A stretch of DNA of 64,000 nt from contig NZ_JNLX01000066.1 in NCBI RefSeq assembly GCF_000715495.1, forward strand, positions 1 to 64,000, in the 5' to 3' direction. Shown here piece by piece: positions 7,716 through 39,453 of this stretch. This stretch comes from Hymenobacter sp. IS2118. GTDB taxonomy: Bacteria > Bacteroidota > Bacteroidia > Cytophagales > Hymenobacteraceae. The notes under the pieces were generated by a model, which was not told the DNA's origin, did no database searches, and worked only from the letters and a program-made list of their open reading frames with translations. The translations under genes were made by a program, and so were the position numbers. Every line of letters begins with the position of its first letter. The first letter of the stretch is position 1.

Positions 7716-7943
7716 TTAGGCTGTGCTGGCAGGCGCGATGAGACGCGGTGCACGATACGGCGATAGTCGGCCTGCGAAGTGCGACCGGGCCCGCTGCCGC
7801 AGGGTGCCCTGCAAGGTATAGTGGCGGCGTTGGTGCTCGACCACGGCCGAAAAGACCGTGTGCAGGTGCTCAAAAGCCCTTCCGGACAATCCGGTCACGG
7901 CTTGCAGCTGGCCCTGGCGGGCGCGGATAGCAGCGTATTTCAT
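7716..7943 (-). pseudogene. N-terminal remnant of an IS5-type transposase
   Basis: From the ATG at 7943 the product begins MKYAAIRARQGQLQAVTG and continues LSGRAFEHLHTVFSAVVEHQ. This resembles the N-terminal HTH_Tnp_4 region of IS5-group transposases (family pattern: MKY...TG...F..L...). The similarity ends after TLQGTLRQRA and no DDE core follows, so only about the first 50 codons of the original gene survive. It directly follows the truncated gene at 7967-8284. Confidence 0.55.
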
Positions 7944-7966
7944 CAAGCAAAGGTCAGCGTAACCTA

Positions 7967-8284
7967 CTAGTCGGTATAAGCTCTGTTGAATACGCCTTCG
8001 TGCGACATTACTTTAGCTTGGAGCGCGTACCAATCGTAAGAGCCTGTCGCATCCTGCACGAATAAGTCAATATCGTTGCCGTAAGGCTTTTCGACCGGCC
8101 AAGATGTTTTGTACACTTCCACTTTGAATGGGGCCACCTCGTGGGAAAACCTTACTAAATCAAGTACGAAGAGGTCCGTCATCCCTAATTCAGAGAAACT
8201 CAACTCGTAATCAAATACTTCAGAGAGGTGATGGAAGGCGCGCTGGGAAAAATAGCTGGTGTAATCGCAGATGCTCATTGACAT
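7967..8284 (-). pseudogene. 3'-truncated nuclease-like gene (PD-(D/E)XK-like motif)
   Basis: The frame encodes 105 residues from the ATG at 8284. YGNDIDLFVQDATGSYDWY followed by ALQAK resembles a D...QxK nuclease-like motif of the type seen in DUF6615-like proteins, which are about twice as long. The frame stops just after the motif, next to a transposase remnant, so the 3' half appears lost. The Tn3-type unit is inserted 10 bp upstream of the start. Before insertion the gene lay directly downstream of the nuclease-like gene at 12358-13608, on the same strand. Confidence 0.5.
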
Positions 8285-8289
8285 TGGCC

Positions 8290-8294
8290 TGTTA
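8290..8294 (+). repeat. 5-bp target-site duplication, left copy
   Basis: TGTTA immediately precedes the left 38-bp inverted repeat and is repeated at 12312-12316. Confidence 0.88.
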
Positions 8295-8332
8295 GGGGTC
8301 CTCTCAGAAAACGGAAAATATAGCACGCTAAG
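8295..8332 (+). repeat. 38-bp Tn3-type terminal inverted repeat, left
   Basis: It begins GGGGTCCTCTCAGAAAACGG and ends GCACGCTAAG. It matches the reverse complement of 12274-12311 at 35 of 38 positions. Similarity continues several bases inward. Confidence 0.92.
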
Positions 8333-8421
8333 GAATCCGGCCGGACTATTGGCGTGGTTAAATGGGTGGTCCTTCTGTTACTTGGTTACAGAAGGGCCGG
8401 AACTAGCTGGCTAACGTCCGT

Positions 8422-8429
8422 TACCTTTG
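8422..8429 (+). promoter_or_regulatory. putative -7 promoter element
   Basis: TACCTTTG fits TAnnTTTG and lies 19 bp before the ATG at 8448; no TTG is at the expected upstream distance. An inverted repeat CCTTCTGT/ACAGAAGG (8371-8378 and 8388-8395) just upstream could be an operator. Confidence 0.45.
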
Positions 8430-8447
8430 GGGGACTATCCCGCTGCT

Positions 8448-8780
8448 ATGCTGCCGTTGCGCCTGCTATTTCGTTCGTTCGCCTTCCTGCTCGGGCTGCT
8501 CTACCTGGGCGGCGTGTGCGAGCTGGACGCGGCCGAGTGCCGGCAGAACTACGCTCAGGAAACCCATGAGCACGTCGTGGCCCGTACCAGCGTGGACGTA
8601 TCGGCCCCGGCCGCGCAACCCGACGAGGTACCGGATGCCCTGCCGGCGCGGTGGGTGGCGCCCACCTCCCGCCCGGCGTTTCGGCCCTTCGCCGGCTCGC
8701 CGGCCTCCTGGCCCTGGGTGGCCAACCCGCCGCCCCCGGTGCGCCGGCTCTACCTGCGCTACGCCGTGCTGCAAGTCTGA
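8448..8780 (+). CDS. small exported protein of unknown function
   Basis: This 110-residue protein has a hydrophobic signal segment (LLFRSFAFLLGLLYLGGVC) followed by CELDAAECRQ. The rest is a Pro-rich low-complexity body ending in a PPPPVRRLYLRY tail. The layout recalls the small Cys-containing exported proteins that precede metal transport genes elsewhere in this window, but no family is recognised. It lies 98 bp before the TonB receptor, probably in one transcript. Confidence 0.6.
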   Translation: MLPLRLLFRSFAFLLGLLYLGGVCELDAAECRQNYAQETHEHVVARTSVDVSAPAAQPDEVPDALPARWVAPTSRPAFRPFAGSPASWPWVANPPPPVRRLYLRYAVLQV

Positions 8781-8878
8781 TTTTCGGGTCTACACTCCGC
8801 CTTGGCGGCTCTTTTGTGAGGGCCGCCTGTCCGTGTTTGCCCGTTTTTCAGCCTTACCGGCGCGCTGCGCTCCCCTCC

Positions 8879-11059
8879 ATGAAAGTTTTGTTTTTACTAC
8901 TGGCACTGCTAATCAGTGCCGGCGCGGCCGTGGCCCAAAGCCCGCTGCGGGTGCTCGTGCGCGACGAGCGCACCAAAACCGCTTTGCCCGGCGTGACCGT
9001 GGCCATTCCTTCCCTGAGCCTCGGCGCGGCAACCGATGCCGACGGCCGGGCCACGCTGCCCGACGTGCCAGCGGGTACTTATCAGGTGCAGTTTTCCAGC
9101 ATCGGCTACGCGGCCCGCACCCTGCCCTTCACCCTGCCCCAAGCCGGCGACGCGCCCGCCCTGGTCGAGCTGGAGCCAAGCAGCTTGGAATTGCAGGGCG
9201 TGGTGGTCGAGGCCACCCGCACCGGCTCGCGCATCGAGGACGTGCCGGTACGCATCGAGGTGCTGGGGCCGGAAGAGCTGGCCGAAAAAGGCAGTATGAA
9301 GCCGGCCAACATCGCCATGCTGCTTACGGAGGCCTCGGGCATTCAGCCCCAATTCACCTCCGCCAATTCCGGCAGCGTGGCCTTCCGCATTCAGGGCCTG
9401 GACGGGCGCTACACGCAGCTGCTGCGCGACGGCTTCCCCCTCTACGGCGGCTTTTCGCAGGGCCTGAGCCTGGTGCAGATTCCGCCCCTGGACCTGCGGC
9501 AAGTGGAAATCATCAAGGGCGCGTCCTCGGCCCTCTACGGCGGGGATGCCATCGCGGGCCTGGTGAACCTGGTGAGCAAAACGCCCACCGAAACGCCCGA
9601 GCTGAACGTGTTGCTCAACCAAACCCACAAAGGGGGCCGCGACCTGACCGCCTTCTACACCGGCCGCACCGGCAAGCTGGGCCTCACGCTGCTGGCCACC
9701 CAAAACACGCAGCAGGCCCGCGACGTGAGCGGCGACCACTTTACCGACCTGCCGCAGGTGCAGGCCACGACGGTCAATCCGCGCCTGTTCTACTACGTCT
9801 CCGACTCCACCACCCTGTACGCCGGGCTGAACGCCACCGTGGAAACCCGCGCCGGGGGCTACCTGCCAGCCCTGGACAACCCGGCCACGGCCGGCTACAC
9901 CGAACGCAACCGCTCGGACCGCTACAGCACGCAGCTCCGGTTGGATACCCACTTGGGCGGGAAGCGGGTGCTGACCGTGAAAAACAGCGTCAGCAGCTTC
10001 ACCCGCCGCCTTGAGGCAGGCCGCAGCTACTTTGCCGGCCGGCAGCTCTCGACCTACTCCGAAGCCGCGCTGCTGGTGCCCCTCGGCGCGCACCGGGCCG
10101 TGTTCGGCGGCAACGTACTGACGGACGACTTCCGCGAAACGGCAGCCGTGGCCGCTTCGGGTGCCCGCGACTACCAGTACCAGACCTACGGGCTGTTCGC
10201 GCAGGACGATTGGCGGGTACTGGAAAACCTGACCTTGCAAGCGGGCCTGCGCACGGATTATCAGCGCCCGTATGGCCTGTTCGTGCTCCCCCGCTTCTCG
10301 GCCCTCTACAAAGTCGGCGAGCACGTCAGCCTGCGGGCCGGGGGCGGCTTCGGCTACAAAGCGCCCACCATCTTCAGCAGCACCACCGAACAGCAAGCCT
10401 ATGTGAACGTGTTGCCCCTCGACGGGACCAAGCTGCAAGCCGAAGCCTCGCGGGGGCTGAACGCCGACGTGACCGTGCGCGGCCGGGTGGATGAGTTGAA
10501 TATTTCGCTCAACCAGGCCGTTTTCTACACCCGCCTGGACCACACGTTGATACCCGACCCCGCGCAGCTCGCGCTCGGCGTGACCGATTTCCGCAACGCG
10601 GCCGCGCCCATCACGGCGCGGGGCTTTGAAACCAACCTGCGCCTGGGCGTGGAAGGGCTGCAATTCTTCACGGCCTATACCTTCACCGACACCAAACAGA
10701 CCTACGACCTCGGCCAGCCGGCCGAATTGCCGTTTGTCTCGCGGCACCGCCTGGTACTGACCACCGTGTACGAGGCCGAAAAGAGCTTCCGCCTGGGCCT
10801 GGAAGGCACTTACAACGGCCCGCAGTACCTGGGCGACGGGGCCCGGCAGGGGCGCGGGTTCTGGCTGCTGGGGGTGCTGGGCGAAAAAATCTTTGCCCCG
10901 CACTTTTCGGTGGTGCTCAACGTGGAAAACTTCCTCGACGTGCGCCAAACCCGGTTTGAACCGGTGGTTCTCGGCACCCCGGCCGCACCCGCGTTCCGAC
11001 CGCTGTACGCCCCGCTCGACGGCATCGTGGGCAACGTGGCGCTGAAAATCACGCTCTGA
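8879..11059 (+). CDS. TonB-dependent outer-membrane receptor
   Basis: This 726-residue receptor has a signal peptide ending in AAVAQ (about 20), a CarboxypepD_reg-like domain (about 24-105, with AATDADGRATLPDVPAGTY) and a plug domain (about 115-225). The plug shows IRIEVLGPEEL, FRIQGLDGRYTQLLRDGFPL and VEIIKGASSALYGGDAIAG. A 22-strand-type barrel ends in a C-terminal aromatic-rich strand. Family members import chelated metals, vitamin B12 or glycans. Its 1-bp overlap (TGATG) with an MFS gene suggests uptake and onward transport of one compound, perhaps a metallophore. Substrate is not determinable from sequence. Confidence 0.9.
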   Translation: MKVLFLLLALLISAGAAVAQSPLRVLVRDERTKTALPGVTVAIPSLSLGAATDADGRATLPDVPAGTYQVQFSSIGYAARTLPFTLPQAGDAPALVELEPSSLELQGVVVEATRTGSRIEDVPVRIEVLGPEELAEKGSMKPANIAMLLTEASGIQPQFTSANSGSVAFRIQGLDGRYTQLLRDGFPLYGGFSQGLSLVQIPPLDLRQVEIIKGASSALYGGDAIAGLVNLVSKTPTETPELNVLLNQTHKGGRDLTAFYTGRTGKLGLTLLATQNTQQARDVSGDHFTDLPQVQATTVNPRLFYYVSDSTTLYAGLNATVETRAGGYLPALDNPATAGYTERNRSDRYSTQLRLDTHLGGKRVLTVKNSVSSFTRRLEAGRSYFAGRQLSTYSEAALLVPLGAHRAVFGGNVLTDDFRETAAVAASGARDYQYQTYGLFAQDDWRVLENLTLQAGLRTDYQRPYGLFVLPRFSALYKVGEHVSLRAGGGFGYKAPTIFSSTTEQQAYVNVLPLDGTKLQAEASRGLNADVTVRGRVDELNISLNQAVFYTRLDHTLIPDPAQLALGVTDFRNAAAPITARGFETNLRLGVEGLQFFTAYTFTDTKQTYDLGQPAELPFVSRHRLVLTTVYEAEKSFRLGLEGTYNGPQYLGDGARQGRGFWLLGVLGEKIFAPHFSVVLNVENFLDVRQTRFEPVVLGTPAAPAFRPLYAPLDGIVGNVALKITL

Positions 11060-12258
11060 TGGGGCGGTTTTCCTACCTCACCCGCGCCGTGTGGCTGCTC
11101 TCGCTTATCAGCCTCTTTACCGACCTGGCCAGCGAGATGCTGTACCCCATCATGCCGCTCTACCTGCAAAGCATCGGCTTTTCGGTGGTGTTCATTGGGC
11201 TGCTCGAAGGCGTGGCCGAAGCCGTGGCCGGCCTGAGTAAAGGCTATTTTGGGCAGTGGAGCGACCGACTGGGGCAGCGGGTGCCCTTCGTGCGGTGGGG
11301 CTACGGCCTGAGTGCGCTTAGCAAGCCAATGCTGGCGGTACTGGCTACCCCGGTGTGGGTGCTGCTGGCCCGCACCGTGGACCGGCTGGGCAAAGGCCTA
11401 CGCACCGGGGCGCGGGACGCGCTGCTTTCGGACGAGACAACGCCGGCCAACAAAGGAAAGATGTTCGGCTTTCACCGCTCGGTGGACACGCTCGGGGCCG
11501 TGCTCGGCCCCACGGCCGCGCTGCTCTGGCTGGCGGCCCGTCCCGGCCAGTTCCGGCCCTTGTTCCTGTGGGCCTTCGTGCCGGGGGTGCTGGCCGTGGC
11601 CATTACCCTGCTGCTGCGGGAGCGGCCCGCCATGCCCTCGCCCCGGCCGGTGCGCCCGTTTTGGGCCTCCTTCGGCTACTGGCGCGTGGCTCCGCCCGCC
11701 TACCGGCGCGTGGTGGGGGCGCTGCTGGTCTTTGCCCTGTTCAACAGCTCCGATGCGTTCCTGCTGCTGCTGGCGCGGCAGCGGGGCGTATCCGATACGG
11801 GCGTTATCGGGCTCTACATTCTCTATAACGCGGTGTACGTGCTCAGCGCCTGGCCCCTGGGGCACCTGGCCGACCGGCTGGGGCCGCGCCGGCTGCTGGT
11901 GGGCGGGCTGCTGGCGTTCGCGGCCGTGTACGGCGGCGTGGCCCTGGCGCATTCCGGGTGGGCGTTTGCGGCCCTGTTCGCGCTCTACGGCCTGTACGCG
12001 GCCAGCACGGAAGGCGTGGCCAAAGCCTGGGTAAGCAACTTGTGTGCGAAGTCGGATGCCGGCGCGGCCCTGGGCACCTTCGGCGGGCTGGGGAGCCTGG
12101 CGGCGTTGGTGGCCAGCGTGAGCGCGGGTGCGCTGTGGCAAATGGCCGGGCCGGGCTGGGCATTCGCCCTGGCGGCCGGGGCCGCGCTGAGCGTGGCGGC
12201 ATACTTGGCGCTGGCCCGCCTGCCAGAACGGTCGTCTCGCAACGTGGTGACCAGATAA
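11059..12258 (+). CDS. MFS transporter
   Basis: This 399-residue, about 12-helix protein has MFS motif A (YFGQWSDRLGQR after helix 2) and a second copy in the C-terminal half (HLADRLGPRR). The LARTVDRLGKGLRTGARDAL segment is characteristic of a bacterial MFS subgroup that includes metal and drug exporters. It is translationally coupled to the TonB receptor by TGATG and ends 15 bp before the right transposon end. A shared role with the receptor is inferred. Confidence 0.88.
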   Translation: MGRFSYLTRAVWLLSLISLFTDLASEMLYPIMPLYLQSIGFSVVFIGLLEGVAEAVAGLSKGYFGQWSDRLGQRVPFVRWGYGLSALSKPMLAVLATPVWVLLARTVDRLGKGLRTGARDALLSDETTPANKGKMFGFHRSVDTLGAVLGPTAALLWLAARPGQFRPLFLWAFVPGVLAVAITLLLRERPAMPSPRPVRPFWASFGYWRVAPPAYRRVVGALLVFALFNSSDAFLLLLARQRGVSDTGVIGLYILYNAVYVLSAWPLGHLADRLGPRRLLVGGLLAFAAVYGGVALAHSGWAFAALFALYGLYAASTEGVAKAWVSNLCAKSDAGAALGTFGGLGSLAALVASVSAGALWQMAGPGWAFALAAGAALSVAAYLALARLPERSSRNVVTR

Positions 12259-12273
12259 CAGGAGGCCAGATTC

Positions 12274-12311
12274 CTTAACGTGCTATATCTTCCGTGTTCT
12301 GAGAGGACCCC
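12274..12311 (-). repeat. 38-bp Tn3-type terminal inverted repeat, right
   Basis: This is the inverted partner of 8295-8332 with three mismatches. It is followed directly by TGTTA. Confidence 0.92.
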
Positions 12312-12316
12312 TGTTA
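12312..12316 (+). repeat. 5-bp target-site duplication, right copy
   Basis: TGTTA is identical to 8290-8294. Confidence 0.88.
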
Positions 12317-12357: not shown

Positions 12358-13608
12358 TTAGGAAACCGAACGGGCAATCTTGCGCATAGCCGCCGGCGAA
12401 TCCCCAAACTTGCACAGGGCCTCGCAGTGCTGGCGCAGCTCCGAAAACAGGATGTAATGAATGGTCGCCCCGGCGGCCCGAATGGCCGGCCGCGACAGCT
12501 GCGCCTGTACCTCCTTTTCGCGGGCATCGGGCACCACCAGGTACAGCGCCGTCTCGTGCTCCGGCATGGAGAAAGCCAAATCCGTCAGGCGCAGAATGCC
12601 GCTGTAGATGCTGGTGCTTTTCTCCACTTCAAAGGCGGCCACCACCCGGCTGGTGCCGGGCGCGAACCACACGATGTCAATCAGGCGGATGGTGCTGGCC
12701 ACCTCGGCGGGCACGGGCAGCTCGGGGTGCTGGTCGAGGCAGAGAAAGGAGAGCTTCTGGCCCTGACAGAGGCGGTTGCGGTCGTTGATGGCCGTGGTTA
12801 CGTCGCAGCCCAGCGCCTTGCCCACGCGCAGCAGGTGGTACTGCATCTCGGTGTGCTGGTTTTCTTCCTGCGCTTCGCTCTGCACCTCTTTGTGGCGCTT
12901 TTGGGCCTGCTGCTGGTACTTGTCGCGGTCCTCGTTGGTGGCAAACTGCTGGTCGCCAGCAATCAACTTTTTCACCCCTACGTCGAAGAGCAGGCCGCTC
13001 AACGCCCCGTAGTCTAGGCTCAGGTGCTGGCGGTGTTCCTGGTTTAGGTCACGCAGCCGGGCGCGCATGCGCAGGTACTCGGACCAGGAACCGAGCTTTA
13101 TTTTCTCCCCAAACAGCGCGTTGAAGCCGTTGACGATGGCCGTGTTGCATGGCGGCATCAGCGTGGGGTGCAGGAAGTAGAGGATGCTGGCCACGGCCGG
13201 CCCCAGGCCCTTGATTTTGCGGCGGTCCAGGATGTCAATCTCGCGTAGCAGCTGCTGCTCGGTCGTAGCCGCCAGGCAGCTTTCCAGAAATTGACCGAAG
13301 GCGCGCTTGTTGTCCTCGTGCTCGTAGATATCCGGGATACGCAGCTTGGGCTTCCAGTAGAAGGGGTGGGCCGCGCCCTGAAACACCTGCTTCTGCTCGC
13401 TGATGACGCTGAGCACAAATTCGAGTGAGGTGCCCTTGAAATCATTGCCGAAGCTGCCCGCCTTGATGTCTTTAACCACCTGCTGCACCCCGCGTCGGAT
13501 GGAGCGAAAGGCCTTCAGCCGGTCCTCGTTGTTAATGAACCAGGTGTTGTAAACGGACTCGGAGTCGGCTTTGTAGGACTGGATGAGGGGTAGAAGCGCG
13601 GCAGACAT
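12358..13608 (-). CDS. restriction-endonuclease-like protein (HhH plus PD-(D/E)XK)
   Basis: This 416-residue protein has a helical N-terminal half with a helix-hairpin-helix-like segment (KGLGPAVASILYFLHP, about 160). After a charged coiled-coil-like linker rich in Q/E/K (about 235-260), the C-terminal domain reads RLIDIVWF then VVAAFEVEKSTSIYSGILRL. That has the IDxxW...FEVExS pattern of PD-(D/E)XK nucleases. I start at the ATG at 13608. The family resembles uncharacterised restriction nucleases; no methyltransferase is next to it. Before the Tn3-type insertion it preceded the truncated nuclease-like gene at 7967-8284 on the same strand. Confidence 0.68.
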   Translation of the reverse strand: MSAALLPLIQSYKADSESVYNTWFINNEDRLKAFRSIRRGVQQVVKDIKAGSFGNDFKGTSLEFVLSVISEQKQVFQGAAHPFYWKPKLRIPDIYEHEDNKRAFGQFLESCLAATTEQQLLREIDILDRRKIKGLGPAVASILYFLHPTLMPPCNTAIVNGFNALFGEKIKLGSWSEYLRMRARLRDLNQEHRQHLSLDYGALSGLLFDVGVKKLIAGDQQFATNEDRDKYQQQAQKRHKEVQSEAQEENQHTEMQYHLLRVGKALGCDVTTAINDRNRLCQGQKLSFLCLDQHPELPVPAEVASTIRLIDIVWFAPGTSRVVAAFEVEKSTSIYSGILRLTDLAFSMPEHETALYLVVPDAREKEVQAQLSRPAIRAAGATIHYILFSELRQHCEALCKFGDSPAAMRKIARSVS

Positions 13609-31396: not shown

Positions 31397-32764
31397 ATGA
31401 TTGAGCGACTCATTTCTCTTTCCCTGCGGAACCGCTACTTCGTGCTGCTGCTCGCCGCCGGCTTGTTTGCCTGGGGCGCGTACTCGGTGCGCGAAAGTAA
31501 AATCGATGCCATCCCCGACCTGTCCGAAAACCAGGTCATCGTCTTCACCGAGTGGATGGGCCGCAGCCCCCAAATCATGGAGGACCAGGTTACCTACCCG
31601 CTGGTGACCAACATGCAGGGCCTGCCCAAGGTGAAGTCCGTGCGCGGCACGTCCATGTTCGGCATGAGCTTCGTGTTCCTGATTTTTGAGGACGACGCCG
31701 ACATTTACTGGGCCCGCGAGCGGGTGCTGGAGCGCCTCAATTACGCCCAGCGCCTGCTGCCATCTGGAGTAACCCCCACCCTGGGCCCCGACGGCACGGG
31801 CGTGGGCCACGTGCTCTGGTACACGCTCAAGGCGCCCGGCCTGGACCTGGGCGAGCAGCGGGCCCTGCAGGACTGGTACGTGAAGTTCGGCCTGCAAAAC
31901 GTGCCCGGCGTGAGCGAGGTGGCCAGCTTCGGCGGCTTCCAGAAGCAGTACCAGGTGACGGTGGACCCCACCAGGATGACCTACTACGGCATCACGCTGC
32001 CGCAGGTGCTGGCGGCGGTACGCAGCAACAACAACGAGGCCGGCGGGCGCAAGTTCGAGCAGTCGGGCGTAGGCTACATCATCAAAACGACGGGCTATAT
32101 CCAGGATATGGCCACGCTGGAAAACGTGCCGGTCATCACTAAGGGCACCACGCCGGTGCGCATCCGCGACGTGGCCACGGTGCAGATGACGGGCGAAAGC
32201 CGCCTGGGCATCATGGACCTCAACGGCGAGGGCGAGGCCGTGGGCGGCATCGTGGTGATGCGCTACGGCGAAAACGCCGACGCCATGATAACGCGGGTGA
32301 AGGCCAAGATGGAGCAAATCCGCGCCGGGCTGCCCCCGGGCGTCTCGTTTCAACTGGTGTACGACCGCAGCGGGCTGATTCAGGATTCGGTGGATTCCAT
32401 CAAGCACACGCTCATTGAGGAAATGGTGGTGGTGTCGCTGGTGGTGCTGCTGTTCCTCTTTCACTGGCGCAGCGCGCTGAGCATCCTGATTCAGATTCCC
32501 ATCACCATCGCCACGAGCTTCATCCTGCTCAATGCCTTCGACATTTCCTCCAACATCATGTCGCTCACCGGCATTGCCCTGGCCATCGGCGTCATCGTCG
32601 ACAACGGCATCGTAATGACCGAAAACGCCTACCGCAACCTGGCCGAGTACCAGGCCCAGGAGAACCCGGGCGGCCCACCGGACACCGGCCCCTCGCCGCC
32701 AAGCGCCCTGCCCACCGCATCCGCTCCGGCTCCTTCTACCTCAACCCCCGTTTCTCATGGATAA
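31397..32764 (+). CDS. cusA: CusA-type RND pump, N-terminal half of a split gene
   Basis: These 455 residues cover helix 1 (SLRNRYFVLLLAAGLFAWGA), the PN/DN porter and docking parts and helices 2-4, ending shortly after IALAIGVIVDNGIVMTENAY. A Pro/Ser/Thr-rich tail follows (GPSPPSALPTASAPAPSTST) and the frame closes at TGGATAA. Intact CusA is about 1,040-1,090 residues, so this is half a pump. The continuation is the next gene in the +1 frame, with an 8-bp overlap. The break falls in the cytoplasmic loop between helices 4 and 5. Confidence 0.88.
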   Translation: MIERLISLSLRNRYFVLLLAAGLFAWGAYSVRESKIDAIPDLSENQVIVFTEWMGRSPQIMEDQVTYPLVTNMQGLPKVKSVRGTSMFGMSFVFLIFEDDADIYWARERVLERLNYAQRLLPSGVTPTLGPDGTGVGHVLWYTLKAPGLDLGEQRALQDWYVKFGLQNVPGVSEVASFGGFQKQYQVTVDPTRMTYYGITLPQVLAAVRSNNNEAGGRKFEQSGVGYIIKTTGYIQDMATLENVPVITKGTTPVRIRDVATVQMTGESRLGIMDLNGEGEAVGGIVVMRYGENADAMITRVKAKMEQIRAGLPPGVSFQLVYDRSGLIQDSVDSIKHTLIEEMVVVSLVVLLFLFHWRSALSILIQIPITIATSFILLNAFDISSNIMSLTGIALAIGVIVDNGIVMTENAYRNLAEYQAQENPGGPPDTGPSPPSALPTASAPAPSTSTPVSHG

Positions 32765-34649
32765 CCAAAAGCGGCTCGAAATCATCGAGTCCTCCAGCAA
32801 GCAGGTGTCGCGGGGAATCTTCTTCTCGACCATCATCATCGTCACTTCCTTTTTGCCGGTGTTTCTGCTCACCGGGCAGGAGGGCAAGCTCTTCCACCCG
32901 CTGGCCTACACCAAGAGCTTTATTCTGATTATCGACGCCATTCTGGCCGTGACGCTGGCCCCGGTGCTGATTTCCTTTTTTCTGAAGGGCAAGTTTAAAA
33001 CCGAGGACCAGAACCCGCTCAACCGCTTCCTGGAGCGCGTGTACTCGCCGATGCTGCACTGGGTGATGCGCTGGCGCAAAACCACCCTGGCCATCAACGT
33101 GCTGGCCCTGCTGGTGAGCATCCCCTTAGTCATGAGCCTGGGCACCGAGTTCATGCCACCGCTCAACGAGGGCTCCATCCTGTTCATGCCCGTGGCCCAG
33201 CCCGACGTGTCAAACACGGAGATGAAGCGCATCCTGCAGGTGCAGGACAAGATTATCAAGCAGGTGCCCGAGGTGCTCAGCGTGCTGGGCAAGGCCGGCC
33301 GGGCCAGCTCGGCCACCGACAACTCGCCCATCAACATGATTGAAACCATCATCCTGCTCAAGCCCCGCGACCAGTGGCGCGCGGGCATGACCAAGGCCCA
33401 GCTGATTGAGGAGATGAACGGCAAGCTCCAGATTCCGGGCGTGGTCAACGGCTGGACCCAGCCCATCATCAACCGCATCAACATGCTGAGCACCGGCATC
33501 CGCACCGACGTGGGCGTGAAGGTGTACGGCCAGAACCTGAACACCATCAACGACGTGGCCAATCAGGTGAACGCCGCCCTCAAAGGCGTGCCCGGCGTGG
33601 AAGACCTGTACGTGGAGCCCGTGACGGGCGGCAAGTACCTGGAAATCGACATGAATCGCCCCGAGCTGGCCCGCTACGGCCTCACCGTGGACCAGGTAAA
33701 CGAAGTCGTGGAGTCGGCCATCGGCGGGGCCCCCATCGCCAGCACGGTGGAAGGCCGGCGCCGCTTTGCCATCAACGTGCGCCTGGCCCAGGACTACCGC
33801 AACAGCCTGGCCGATATCAAGCGCATTCCCATCCAGACGGCCAGCTACGGCCCGGTGCCGCTGTCGGCGGTCACCACCATCCGCTACGCCGAGGGCCCGC
33901 CCATGATAAGCTCGGAAAACGCCCAGCTGCGCGGCGCGGTGCTCTTCAACGTGCGGGGCCGCGACCTGGGCAGCACCGTGGACGCCGCCATGCAAAAGCT
34001 ACAGAGCCTGGAAAGCAAGCTCCCCCAGGGCTACTACCTGGAGTGGAGCGGGCAGTACGAAAACCTGATTAGCGCGCAGCGCACCCTTAAGCTGATTCTG
34101 CCGCTGGTACTGGTGGTGATTTTTGGGGCCCTGTACTTCGCGTTTCACTCCGTGCGGGAGGCATTTATGAGCCTCATCACCATTCCCTTCGCCCTGATTG
34201 GCGGGGCCTACATGGTGTATTTCTACGGCGTGAACCTGTCGGTGGCGGTGGCCGTGGGCTTCATCGCCCTGTTCGGGCTGGCCGTGGAAACGGGCGTCAT
34301 CATGGTCATCTACTTGAATGACGCCATGCAGAAGCTGGTGGCGCTGAAGGGCAACTCCCGGGAAACCATCACCAAGGAAGACCTGCAGGAAGCCGTATTT
34401 CACGGCGCGGCCAAGCGCCTGCGGCCCAAGCTGATGACCGTCTCGGTCTCGCTGTTCGGCCTGGTGCCGGTGCTCTGGGCCACGGGTACGGGCTCGGACG
34501 TGATGCTGCCCATCGTGCTGCCCATGATAGGCGGGGTGTTCACCTCGGCCACCCACATATTGCTCGTCACGCCGCTCATCTTCCTGTATACCAAGGAGTA
34601 TGAGCTGCGCAAATTCGGAAAAATCGATGTCCTTGAAGTCTCGCACTAA
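32757..34649 (+). CDS. cusA: CusA-type RND pump, C-terminal half of a split gene
   Basis: These 630 residues resume at QKRLEIIESSSKQVSRGIFF (start of helix 5) and run to the normal CusA end. They include the copper-relay-type segments PINMIETIILLKP and PIINRINMLSTGIRTDVGVK; the third relay methionine position reads ARYGLTV, that is, Leu. It begins at the ATG inside the overlap ATGGATAA. Either two subunits assemble or a frameshift restores one chain; a base error near the C5 run at about 32746 is also possible. Confidence 0.88.
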   Translation: MDNQKRLEIIESSSKQVSRGIFFSTIIIVTSFLPVFLLTGQEGKLFHPLAYTKSFILIIDAILAVTLAPVLISFFLKGKFKTEDQNPLNRFLERVYSPMLHWVMRWRKTTLAINVLALLVSIPLVMSLGTEFMPPLNEGSILFMPVAQPDVSNTEMKRILQVQDKIIKQVPEVLSVLGKAGRASSATDNSPINMIETIILLKPRDQWRAGMTKAQLIEEMNGKLQIPGVVNGWTQPIINRINMLSTGIRTDVGVKVYGQNLNTINDVANQVNAALKGVPGVEDLYVEPVTGGKYLEIDMNRPELARYGLTVDQVNEVVESAIGGAPIASTVEGRRRFAINVRLAQDYRNSLADIKRIPIQTASYGPVPLSAVTTIRYAEGPPMISSENAQLRGAVLFNVRGRDLGSTVDAAMQKLQSLESKLPQGYYLEWSGQYENLISAQRTLKLILPLVLVVIFGALYFAFHSVREAFMSLITIPFALIGGAYMVYFYGVNLSVAVAVGFIALFGLAVETGVIMVIYLNDAMQKLVALKGNSRETITKEDLQEAVFHGAAKRLRPKLMTVSVSLFGLVPVLWATGTGSDVMLPIVLPMIGGVFTSATHILLVTPLIFLYTKEYELRKFGKIDVLEVSH

Positions 34650-39057: not shown

Positions 39058-39453
39058 ATGCTCCCCAAAGACCTCACCCGCAACCTGAAAAGCCGCCTCA
39101 ACATACTGGCGGGCCAGCTGCACGGCATCGTCAAAATGCTAGACGCTGAGACCACCGCGCCGGAACAGATTCTGGTGCAGTTCAAGGCGGTGACCAACGG
39201 GCTCAGCACTGCTGAGCATCTACTGCTCGATGAGGTATTCCGCAAAAGCCTGGCCCTACAAATCGTGGACGTGGTGGGTGCCTGCCCCGGCGACTGCCAG
39301 GATGCCGGGCGCATTGAGGAGCTGCGCCGGGAGTTCCCCACCCTGACGGAGGCGGAGCTGACGAAGAAAATGAGGGAGCTACGCGAGATTGGCGGACGGC
39401 TGGAACAGCACAATGCAGTAGCGGCCGCGAAAGAATCACCCAAAAAAGCTTGA
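39058..39453 (+). CDS. CsoR/RcnR-family metal-sensing repressor
   Basis: This 131-residue protein has the DUF156 helical bundle (about 8-90), RLNILAGQLHGIVKMLDAE through AEHLLLDEVFRKSLA. The His of the CsoR Cys-His-Cys site appears to be present, but the first Cys position is AP and the last is not Cys, so the metal site must differ from classic CsoR. A Cys pair (CPGDC) and a charged C-terminal extension are additional. It probably represses neighbouring metal genes. Confidence 0.78.
   Translation: MLPKDLTRNLKSRLNILAGQLHGIVKMLDAETTAPEQILVQFKAVTNGLSTAEHLLLDEVFRKSLALQIVDVVGACPGDCQDAGRIEELRREFPTLTEAELTKKMRELREIGGRLEQHNAVAAAKESPKKA

Follow-up and report, generated by a model that had tools for sequence, protein, structure and literature searches.

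Tn21-type transposons are best known for the spread of mercury and tetracycline resistance in Pseudomonadota, and work by Ferreira et al. from 2015 is reportedly what is cited for the TnXax1-type cassettes of Xanthomonas. This study concerns a 64,000-nucleotide window, the whole stretch of DNA analysed, of Hymenobacter sp. IS2118 (RefSeq assembly GCF_000715495.1, contig NZ_JNLX01000066.1, positions 1 to 64,000 of the forward strand), and within it a 4,017-bp cassette at 8295-12311. The cassette carries three genes, all on the plus strand, for a small exported-looking protein, a TonB-dependent receptor and a major facilitator superfamily (MFS) protein. Judged by its sequence, it is very probably a mobile insertion cassette (MIC) of the Tn3 family, Tn21 subgroup, lacking a transposase and resolvase of its own and moved in trans by a Tn21-type TnpA. 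The TnXax1-type MICs of Xanthomonas consist of genes between Tn3-family inverted repeats (IRs), carry no transposition enzymes and need a cognate transposase (PMC6304161). The Tn3-derived inverted-repeat miniature elements (TIMEs) of Pseudomonas are non-autonomous and 262 bp long; TIME-RES makes a 5-bp duplication, and TIME-COMP is DNA enclosed between two TIMEs (PMC4133298). Related terms are defined in PMC3281130. The kind of element is thus already known from other bacteria, and the cassette is one of several such cassettes in Hymenobacter.

The left IR (IRL, 8295-8332, plus strand) is a Tn3-family (Tn21-subgroup) terminal repeat, and the right IR (IRR, 12274-12311, minus strand) is its inverted copy, identical at 35 of 38 positions; the likeness runs to about 8342 on the left, and 44/48 positions agree if the ends are stretched inward. 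Immediately outside them stand the left and right copies of the 5-bp target duplication TGTTA (8290-8294 and 12312-12316, no strand assigned). The cassette-end pattern, with up to three mismatches, was found in the 5.26-Mb assembly of the strain at IRL and IRR only (one forward, one reverse site), and the pattern read backwards, used as a control, was found at 0 sites. Inside the cassette, tblastn with a TnpA from contig C135 of the same genome and a TnpR from Hymenobacter genome G118 (see below) gave no match, and neither did the tnpR-tnpA spacer of G118, which was the sole spacer compared, no general res search having been made. The initial annotation had given the 35/38 match of the 38-bp ends, the identical TGTTA flanks and the 4,017-bp length, all of which were confirmed, and its proposal that the whole unit moved as one piece by a Tn3-type mechanism is supported by the Tn3-type ends and by cassette-free sites.

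With inverted Tn3-family IRs at both borders, a 5-bp target duplication and passenger genes without an internal transposase or resolvase, the cassette has the structural features of a Tn3-family MIC. An autonomous Tn21-subgroup transposon has its own tnpA and tnpR, and the cassette has neither; a TIME is gene-free and of miniature size, and the cassette has three genes in 4,017 bp. Like the Xanthomonas MICs, it holds passengers between Tn3-family IRs and no transposition enzymes; it differs from them in its Bacteroidota host, its Tn21/Tn1721-type ends and its transport operon in place of effector genes (PMC6304161). It is non-autonomous and Tn3-derived like TIMEs and TIME-COMP, and TIME-like elements of 314-319 bp occur in four Hymenobacter genomes; unlike TIME-COMP, it is bordered by single ends and not by complete TIMEs (PMC4133298). 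With Tn21/Tn1721-type transposons it shares the 38-bp ends, and a related TnpA (71-73% identical) is encoded in the same genome; unlike them, it lacks tnpA, tnpR and any match to the G118 tnpR-tnpA spacer.

The DNA left of the cassette has matches in 12 of 120 genomes of the genus, the own genome included, and the loci were examined for eight, again with the own genome. Five of the seven other loci (genomes G063, G046, G104, G086 and G071) are cassette-free, with the genes that flank the cassette adjacent to each other. The left neighbour (7967-8278, minus strand), a DUF6615-like fragment with a Pfam score slightly under the cut-off, belongs to the target locus and not to the cassette, and the right neighbour (12358-13608, minus strand) encodes a hypothetical protein; at the amino acid level the former agrees with its counterparts at 71-84% over 98 residues and the latter at 91-97%. 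Of the two remaining loci, L129 has the left gene only, and at L131 the match lies only farther to the left. In G063 the two flanking genes are 57 bp apart, which is the window spacing minus the cassette minus one TGTTA; the gap itself has low nucleotide similarity between the window and the cassette-free relatives. The cassette is a real insertion at this locus, because five relatives have the flanking genes adjacent without it. Empty sites in relatives had been proposed as a check, and they are present in these five; the idea was to fall if relatives kept the genes at the locus without the repeats or if the repeats were unrelated to Tn3 ends, and the cassette-free relatives do not keep the genes there and the ends are Tn3-type. 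As a separate observation at 7788-7985, the DUF6615-like gene is truncated in the window near 7985, where a segment similar to DNA of G035 and G110 begins; the target locus may have been rearranged here at an earlier time.

Genome G048 carries the same three genes at another site, with 79.4% identity across 3,949 bp, a stretch that takes in the right IR. The copy sits between two convergent genes that by eye resemble thiF and thiE; in G112 the matches to the thiF-like and thiE-like genes end 6 bp apart, and the thiE-like gene was found in 4/19 genomes, G048 included. Relative to the window frame, the MFS gene of G048 has a stop near its end. Because this copy is 79.4% identical and sits at a different site, the two copies indicate two insertions of one cassette design, on sequence divergence apparently long enough ago for about one-fifth of the positions to differ. 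A survey of receptor homologues gave 11 loci outside the own genome with at least 75% receptor identity. Among them a cassette boundary was present in G048 only; G082 has an end upstream, without the small gene or the MFS gene, and the other nine had no end matching at 24/38 or better in the stretches examined (25/38 for the whole G051 contig). With no such end in the examined stretches of nine of the 11 loci, confinement of the operon to cassettes was rejected.

The genome of the strain gave eight Tn3-transposase matches, the best being a full-length 986-aa TnpA on contig C135 with full-length DDE_Tnp_Tn3 and DUF4158 matches. The element around it spans 12,774 bp (C135:20081-32854) and is flanked by TACGT at either end, so that an autonomous Tn3-transposase element with similar ends, which the initial annotation had proposed to look for, is present in the same genome. 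The ends of this element and of the cassette are identical at 32-33 of 38 positions; IRL matches both of them at 33/38 and the TnpA-side end on pRWC72a at 35/38, and the cassette ends match the TnpA-side ends on pRWC72a and pBVIE02 at 32-35/38. The C135 TnpA shares 73% identity with the TnpA of pRWC72a, encoded in the order tet(A)-tnpR-tnpA, and 71% with the TnpA of pMOL28, whose gene stands with a recombinase gene and the mer genes. The subgroup of this TnpA and of the cassette ends is what we take to be Tn21 (Tn1721/Tn501). In G118, such ends enclose TnpA together with TnpR, the contig ends being taken as circular; the flanks of this element differ (TGTTT and AGAGG). The intact C135 TnpA is the obvious candidate for the mover of the cassette.

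A strict pattern found such ends in 29 of the 120 genomes of the genus and a looser one in 35, with no match for the pattern in reverse, which served as control. When 390 genomes were drawn evenly across the order, the ends turned up in 14, of which 13 belong to this genus. The examined loci, the window's included, held 23 convergent end pairs; this count covers pairs within these loci, not every single end being traced to a partner, one right end (L108) enters two pairs, and the C135 element, which spans two loci, is outside the list. Identical 5-bp flanks were present in nine of the 23 pairs, the cassette included, as compared with 0.14% agreement by chance for random 5-mer pairs in the examined loci. 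TnpA is absent from eight of these nine, again including the cassette. If a one-base indel in one end is allowed, two more apparent duplications can be read by our own reading (AAGTA at G113:C12 and TATTT at G078:C3), which were left uncounted.

The cargo between these ends is varied. At L046 2393-9635 (G020), a 7.2-kb arsenic-type cassette has AGCTA on both sides and no TnpA match; its cargo includes an SBF-family permease and an LMWPc-family protein by Pfam, and ArsR-like, ACR3-like and arsenate-reductase-like genes by eye. Other pairs with perfect duplications hold an erythromycin-esterase-family gene in G030 and a sigma factor in G034. A 26.9-kb unit at L165 21879-48771, which is 93878-120770 of pHsw1 of H. 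swuensis, has these ends with TAGAT on both sides; Imm9, immunity 8 and two SMI1/KNR4 genes are annotated in it, the rest being mostly hypothetical, and neither a transposase in the gene table, which is incomplete, nor a TnpA match was found. The same ends bound miniature elements at L055 2122-2435 (G048), L059 2186-2504 (G072), L060 2394-2710 (G078) and L108 8353-8671 (G064); these are 314-319 bp long, mutually alignable and TIME-like, and none has a perfect duplication. The G118 tnpR-tnpA spacer matches TnpA/TnpR elements and part of the 319-bp element at L059. Elements with tnpA and passengers are present as well, at C135 and L053, and so are elements with tnpA or tnpR remnants, at L057, L168 and L111.

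The bases just inside the 38-bp ends bear on the origin of the cassette. Bases 39-50 were compared with those of the C135 ends, by which 11 of 22 pairs, picked after the data had been seen, were classed by end type. At these positions both ends of the cassette agree better with the left end of the C135 element (8/12 and 8/12) than with its TnpA-side end (4/12 and 2/12). One left-type and one TnpA-side-type end were found at C135, L053, L057 and L168, all of which keep TnpA or pieces of it, and in the 146-bp unit at L062. The arsenic cassette of G020 has two TnpA-side-type ends (10/12 and 9/12), L172 and L047 lean the same way more weakly, and L061 has two ends that are alike and match neither type. 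Over the 23 units, the unit's own two ends agree at 9 or more of the 12 positions in five; ends of different elements agree on average at 3.9 of 12 positions, and at 8 or more in 7%. With both of its borders of the left type, the cassette looks like DNA captured by a pair of left ends in inverted orientation rather than the product of a simple loss of tnpA, and the pattern speaks for such an origin.

The best of the other explanations is a decayed autonomous Tn21-type transposon, in which the operon was a passenger and tnpA and tnpR were lost by internal deletion. Elements with tnpA and passengers (C135, L053) and elements with tnpA/tnpR remnants (L057, L168, L111) do exist, as such a history would need. 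Against it, no tnpA or tnpR match is left inside the cassette, the operon leaves no more than 15 bp free before the right end, and neither end is of the TnpA-side type; the G048 copy is equally compact on the right at its other site, which means that the form without TnpA either is old or has moved as such. A decayed transposon is therefore very unlikely, and a simple deletion derivative was rejected as the origin since both ends are left-type.

It is less likely again, to the point of being highly improbable, that a different transposase of the own genome moves the cassette. The example at hand is a second Tn3-type element, with a 1,020-aa TnpA at four places and 8,235 bp between its ends in three copies; it is multicopy, and one copy is on the same contig just past the window (C66 66343-74577), with more on C135, C141 and C169. 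Copies of this element lie at contig ends. Its ends (GGGGTAGCACAAGAG...) are unlike those of the cassette, and L012 and L013 match the consensus end at under 20/38; it was rejected as the donor on this mismatch.

A trans-moved Tn21-subgroup cassette is thus the preferred interpretation, and several observations count against one or another part of it. The cassette is present in one copy only in its own genome, and transposition itself was not seen. Between the ends of the cassette and those of the C135 element, 5-6 of 38 positions do not agree, so that recognition by the C135 TnpA is unproven. TnpA matches at E 1e-150 or better occur in 13 of the 120 genus genomes, six of them with at least 84% identity to the C135 TnpA, and so a close, long TnpA is missing from the assembly of most genomes that have such ends; of the 35 genomes with such ends, only six have a TnpA of at least 84% identity at this E-value. 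Fourteen of the 23 end pairs lack a perfect duplication, four of which match at 4/5. The outer left end of the G048 copy is eroded and a target duplication cannot be read there, and among the three thiE-like loci outside G048, thiF stands beside the gene, within the locus, in G112 only and not in G110 or G121. The same-end pattern holds in some pairs only, and L111, a unit with two left-type ends, lacks a duplication and still contains a remnant of TnpR.

The operon itself appears to be a mosaic. From about 8487 to about 12159, the limits of the BLAST alignment, identity is 92-93% between the window and an operon of H. perfusus, which lies on a contig of 14.9 kb (L096, NZ_RWIU01000013.1) that has no such ends. 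The ends of this contig overlap, so it is apparently circular, and it carries a Rep3 initiator gene and a gene for a MobB-like relaxase that scores under the NCBIfam cut-off. The left rim of the cassette (8395-8505, plus strand), with the leader and the start of the small gene, is closer to the G048 cassette and to the operon of G096 than to that of H. perfusus, and the small gene opens with codons that are almost the same as in G048 and unlike those of H. perfusus. The right rim (12160-12273, plus strand), with the end of the MFS gene and the spacer, aligns to the G048 cassette as far as its end. In the simplest reading of these alignments, homologous recombination would have replaced the core of a G048-like cassette. 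What speaks against an exchange of this kind is the operon of G096, where no ends can be recognised: its likeness to the left rim starts at about 8409, and on the right it extends to about 12223, so that only the outermost parts are specific to cassettes. The mosaic may therefore reflect operon lineages and not a cassette shell, or the H. perfusus operon may be derived from a cassette. That the operon is nothing but a plain horizontally transferred block, brought by a plasmid or recombination, with repeats that are coincidental or stem from two separate short elements, is scarcely credible: the operon does occur without such ends, as on the H. perfusus contig with its Rep3 and MobB-like genes, and the identical 5-bp flanks, the inverted ends, the exactness of the cassette-free sites and the matching right boundary of the second copy stand against it.

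For the trans-moved cassette, the following course can be proposed. Two left-type transposon ends would come to flank the operon, and a Tn21-type TnpA acting in trans, with the C135 TnpA as the candidate, would recognise both. Donor and target would then be joined by replicative transposition with duplication of 5 bp, and the cointegrate would probably be resolved by homologous recombination, because the cassette has no match to the tested tnpR-tnpA spacer. Part of the operon would later be swapped with a related copy, again by homologous recombination.

A wider system in the genus is possible, if rather doubtful: one trans-acting Tn21-type transposase family might move many operons, many of them between two copies of the same end, with the shell being reused, the cargo exchanged by homologous recombination and functions shuffled as modules. 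Cargo moved in this way would include the receptor-transporter operon, arsenic resistance and immunity-gene arrays. The set of cassettes in the genus, an intact candidate transposase, same-end borders and apparently exchanged cargo set the cassette somewhat apart within a known kind of element, and if true, the same-end borders and the cargo exchange suggest how cassettes are born and re-loaded. If an outer-membrane receptor and its partner transporter can move as a unit, an ability for uptake or resistance could be gained in one step. Searches for transposase genes alone would miss these cassettes, because they carry no transposase. The initial annotation considered Tn3-type cassettes that mobilise a metal or metallophore transport module little described in Bacteroidota; no paper on such cassettes in Bacteroidota or Hymenobacter was found in a literature search that covered few subscription papers, and one paper (PMC9769881) is said to treat a miniature inverted-repeat transposable element in Cardinium.

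The first gene of the cargo (8448-8780, plus strand) encodes the small exported-looking protein of 110 aa, which belongs to no family and had no match in Pfam or NCBIfam. Upstream of it, TACCTTTG (8422-8429, plus strand) fits TAnnTTTG, which we take to be the -7 promoter motif of Bacteroidota, and a match to this motif also stands 5' of the homologous small gene in G048, G096 and G051. The second gene (8879-11059, plus strand) encodes the TonB-dependent receptor of 726 aa with CarboxypepD_reg_2, Plug and beta-barrel parts, and the third (11059-12258, plus strand) the MFS transporter of 399 aa, whose start overlaps the receptor stop, the ATG and the stop codon sharing one base. Models for siderophore, haem and B12 receptors match the receptor with scores far under their cut-offs; for TIGR01783 (TonB-dependent siderophore receptor) the score is 93.5 bits, below the curated cut-off of 223.5. 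Among the matches listed (25 of 28 families for the receptor, 17 of 17 for the MFS protein), no NCBIfam model was above its cut-off for either. A search of solved structures gave distant matches only, to the Colicin I receptor for the receptor and, over part of its length, to NorA for the MFS protein. The MFS protein had no meaningful similarity to the MFS protein beside the chromate genes on pMOL28, and none of its plasmid relatives is specifically named among the 40 of 164 plasmid records listed.

The gene neighbourhoods in relatives point to metals. An MFS relative on pHsw1 (85% over 83% of the length) overlaps a heavy-metal P-type ATPase gene and adjoins a CusA/CzcA pump; on a BRD67 plasmid a cation-efflux-family gene follows a related receptor; in H. 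latericoloratus a protein with a sub-threshold match to a metal-sensing repressor sits between receptor and MFS; and in G094 a fragment of a CusA/CzcA-like pump lies upstream of the operon. With neighbours of this kind, metals or their complexes are probably what the cargo deals with at the cell envelope. The initial annotation had called it a metal or metallophore transport module with a coupled receptor-MFS pair: the transport genes are there and the link to metals comes only from the neighbours in relatives, and the coupling is borne out by the overlapping start and by the recurrence of the receptor-MFS pair, not by function.

Outside the cassette and downstream of it, a large copper/metal-efflux island occupies 13708-51705 of the window. 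A CusA-looking pump gene, recognised by eye, is present at 31397-34649 as two overlapping frames of 455 and 630 aa, perhaps through a frameshift or an assembly error. The family search identified DUF4396, CopM, a cupredoxin and CopA in the island, and RND pumps and a CsoR-like protein at 39058-39453 were identified by eye.

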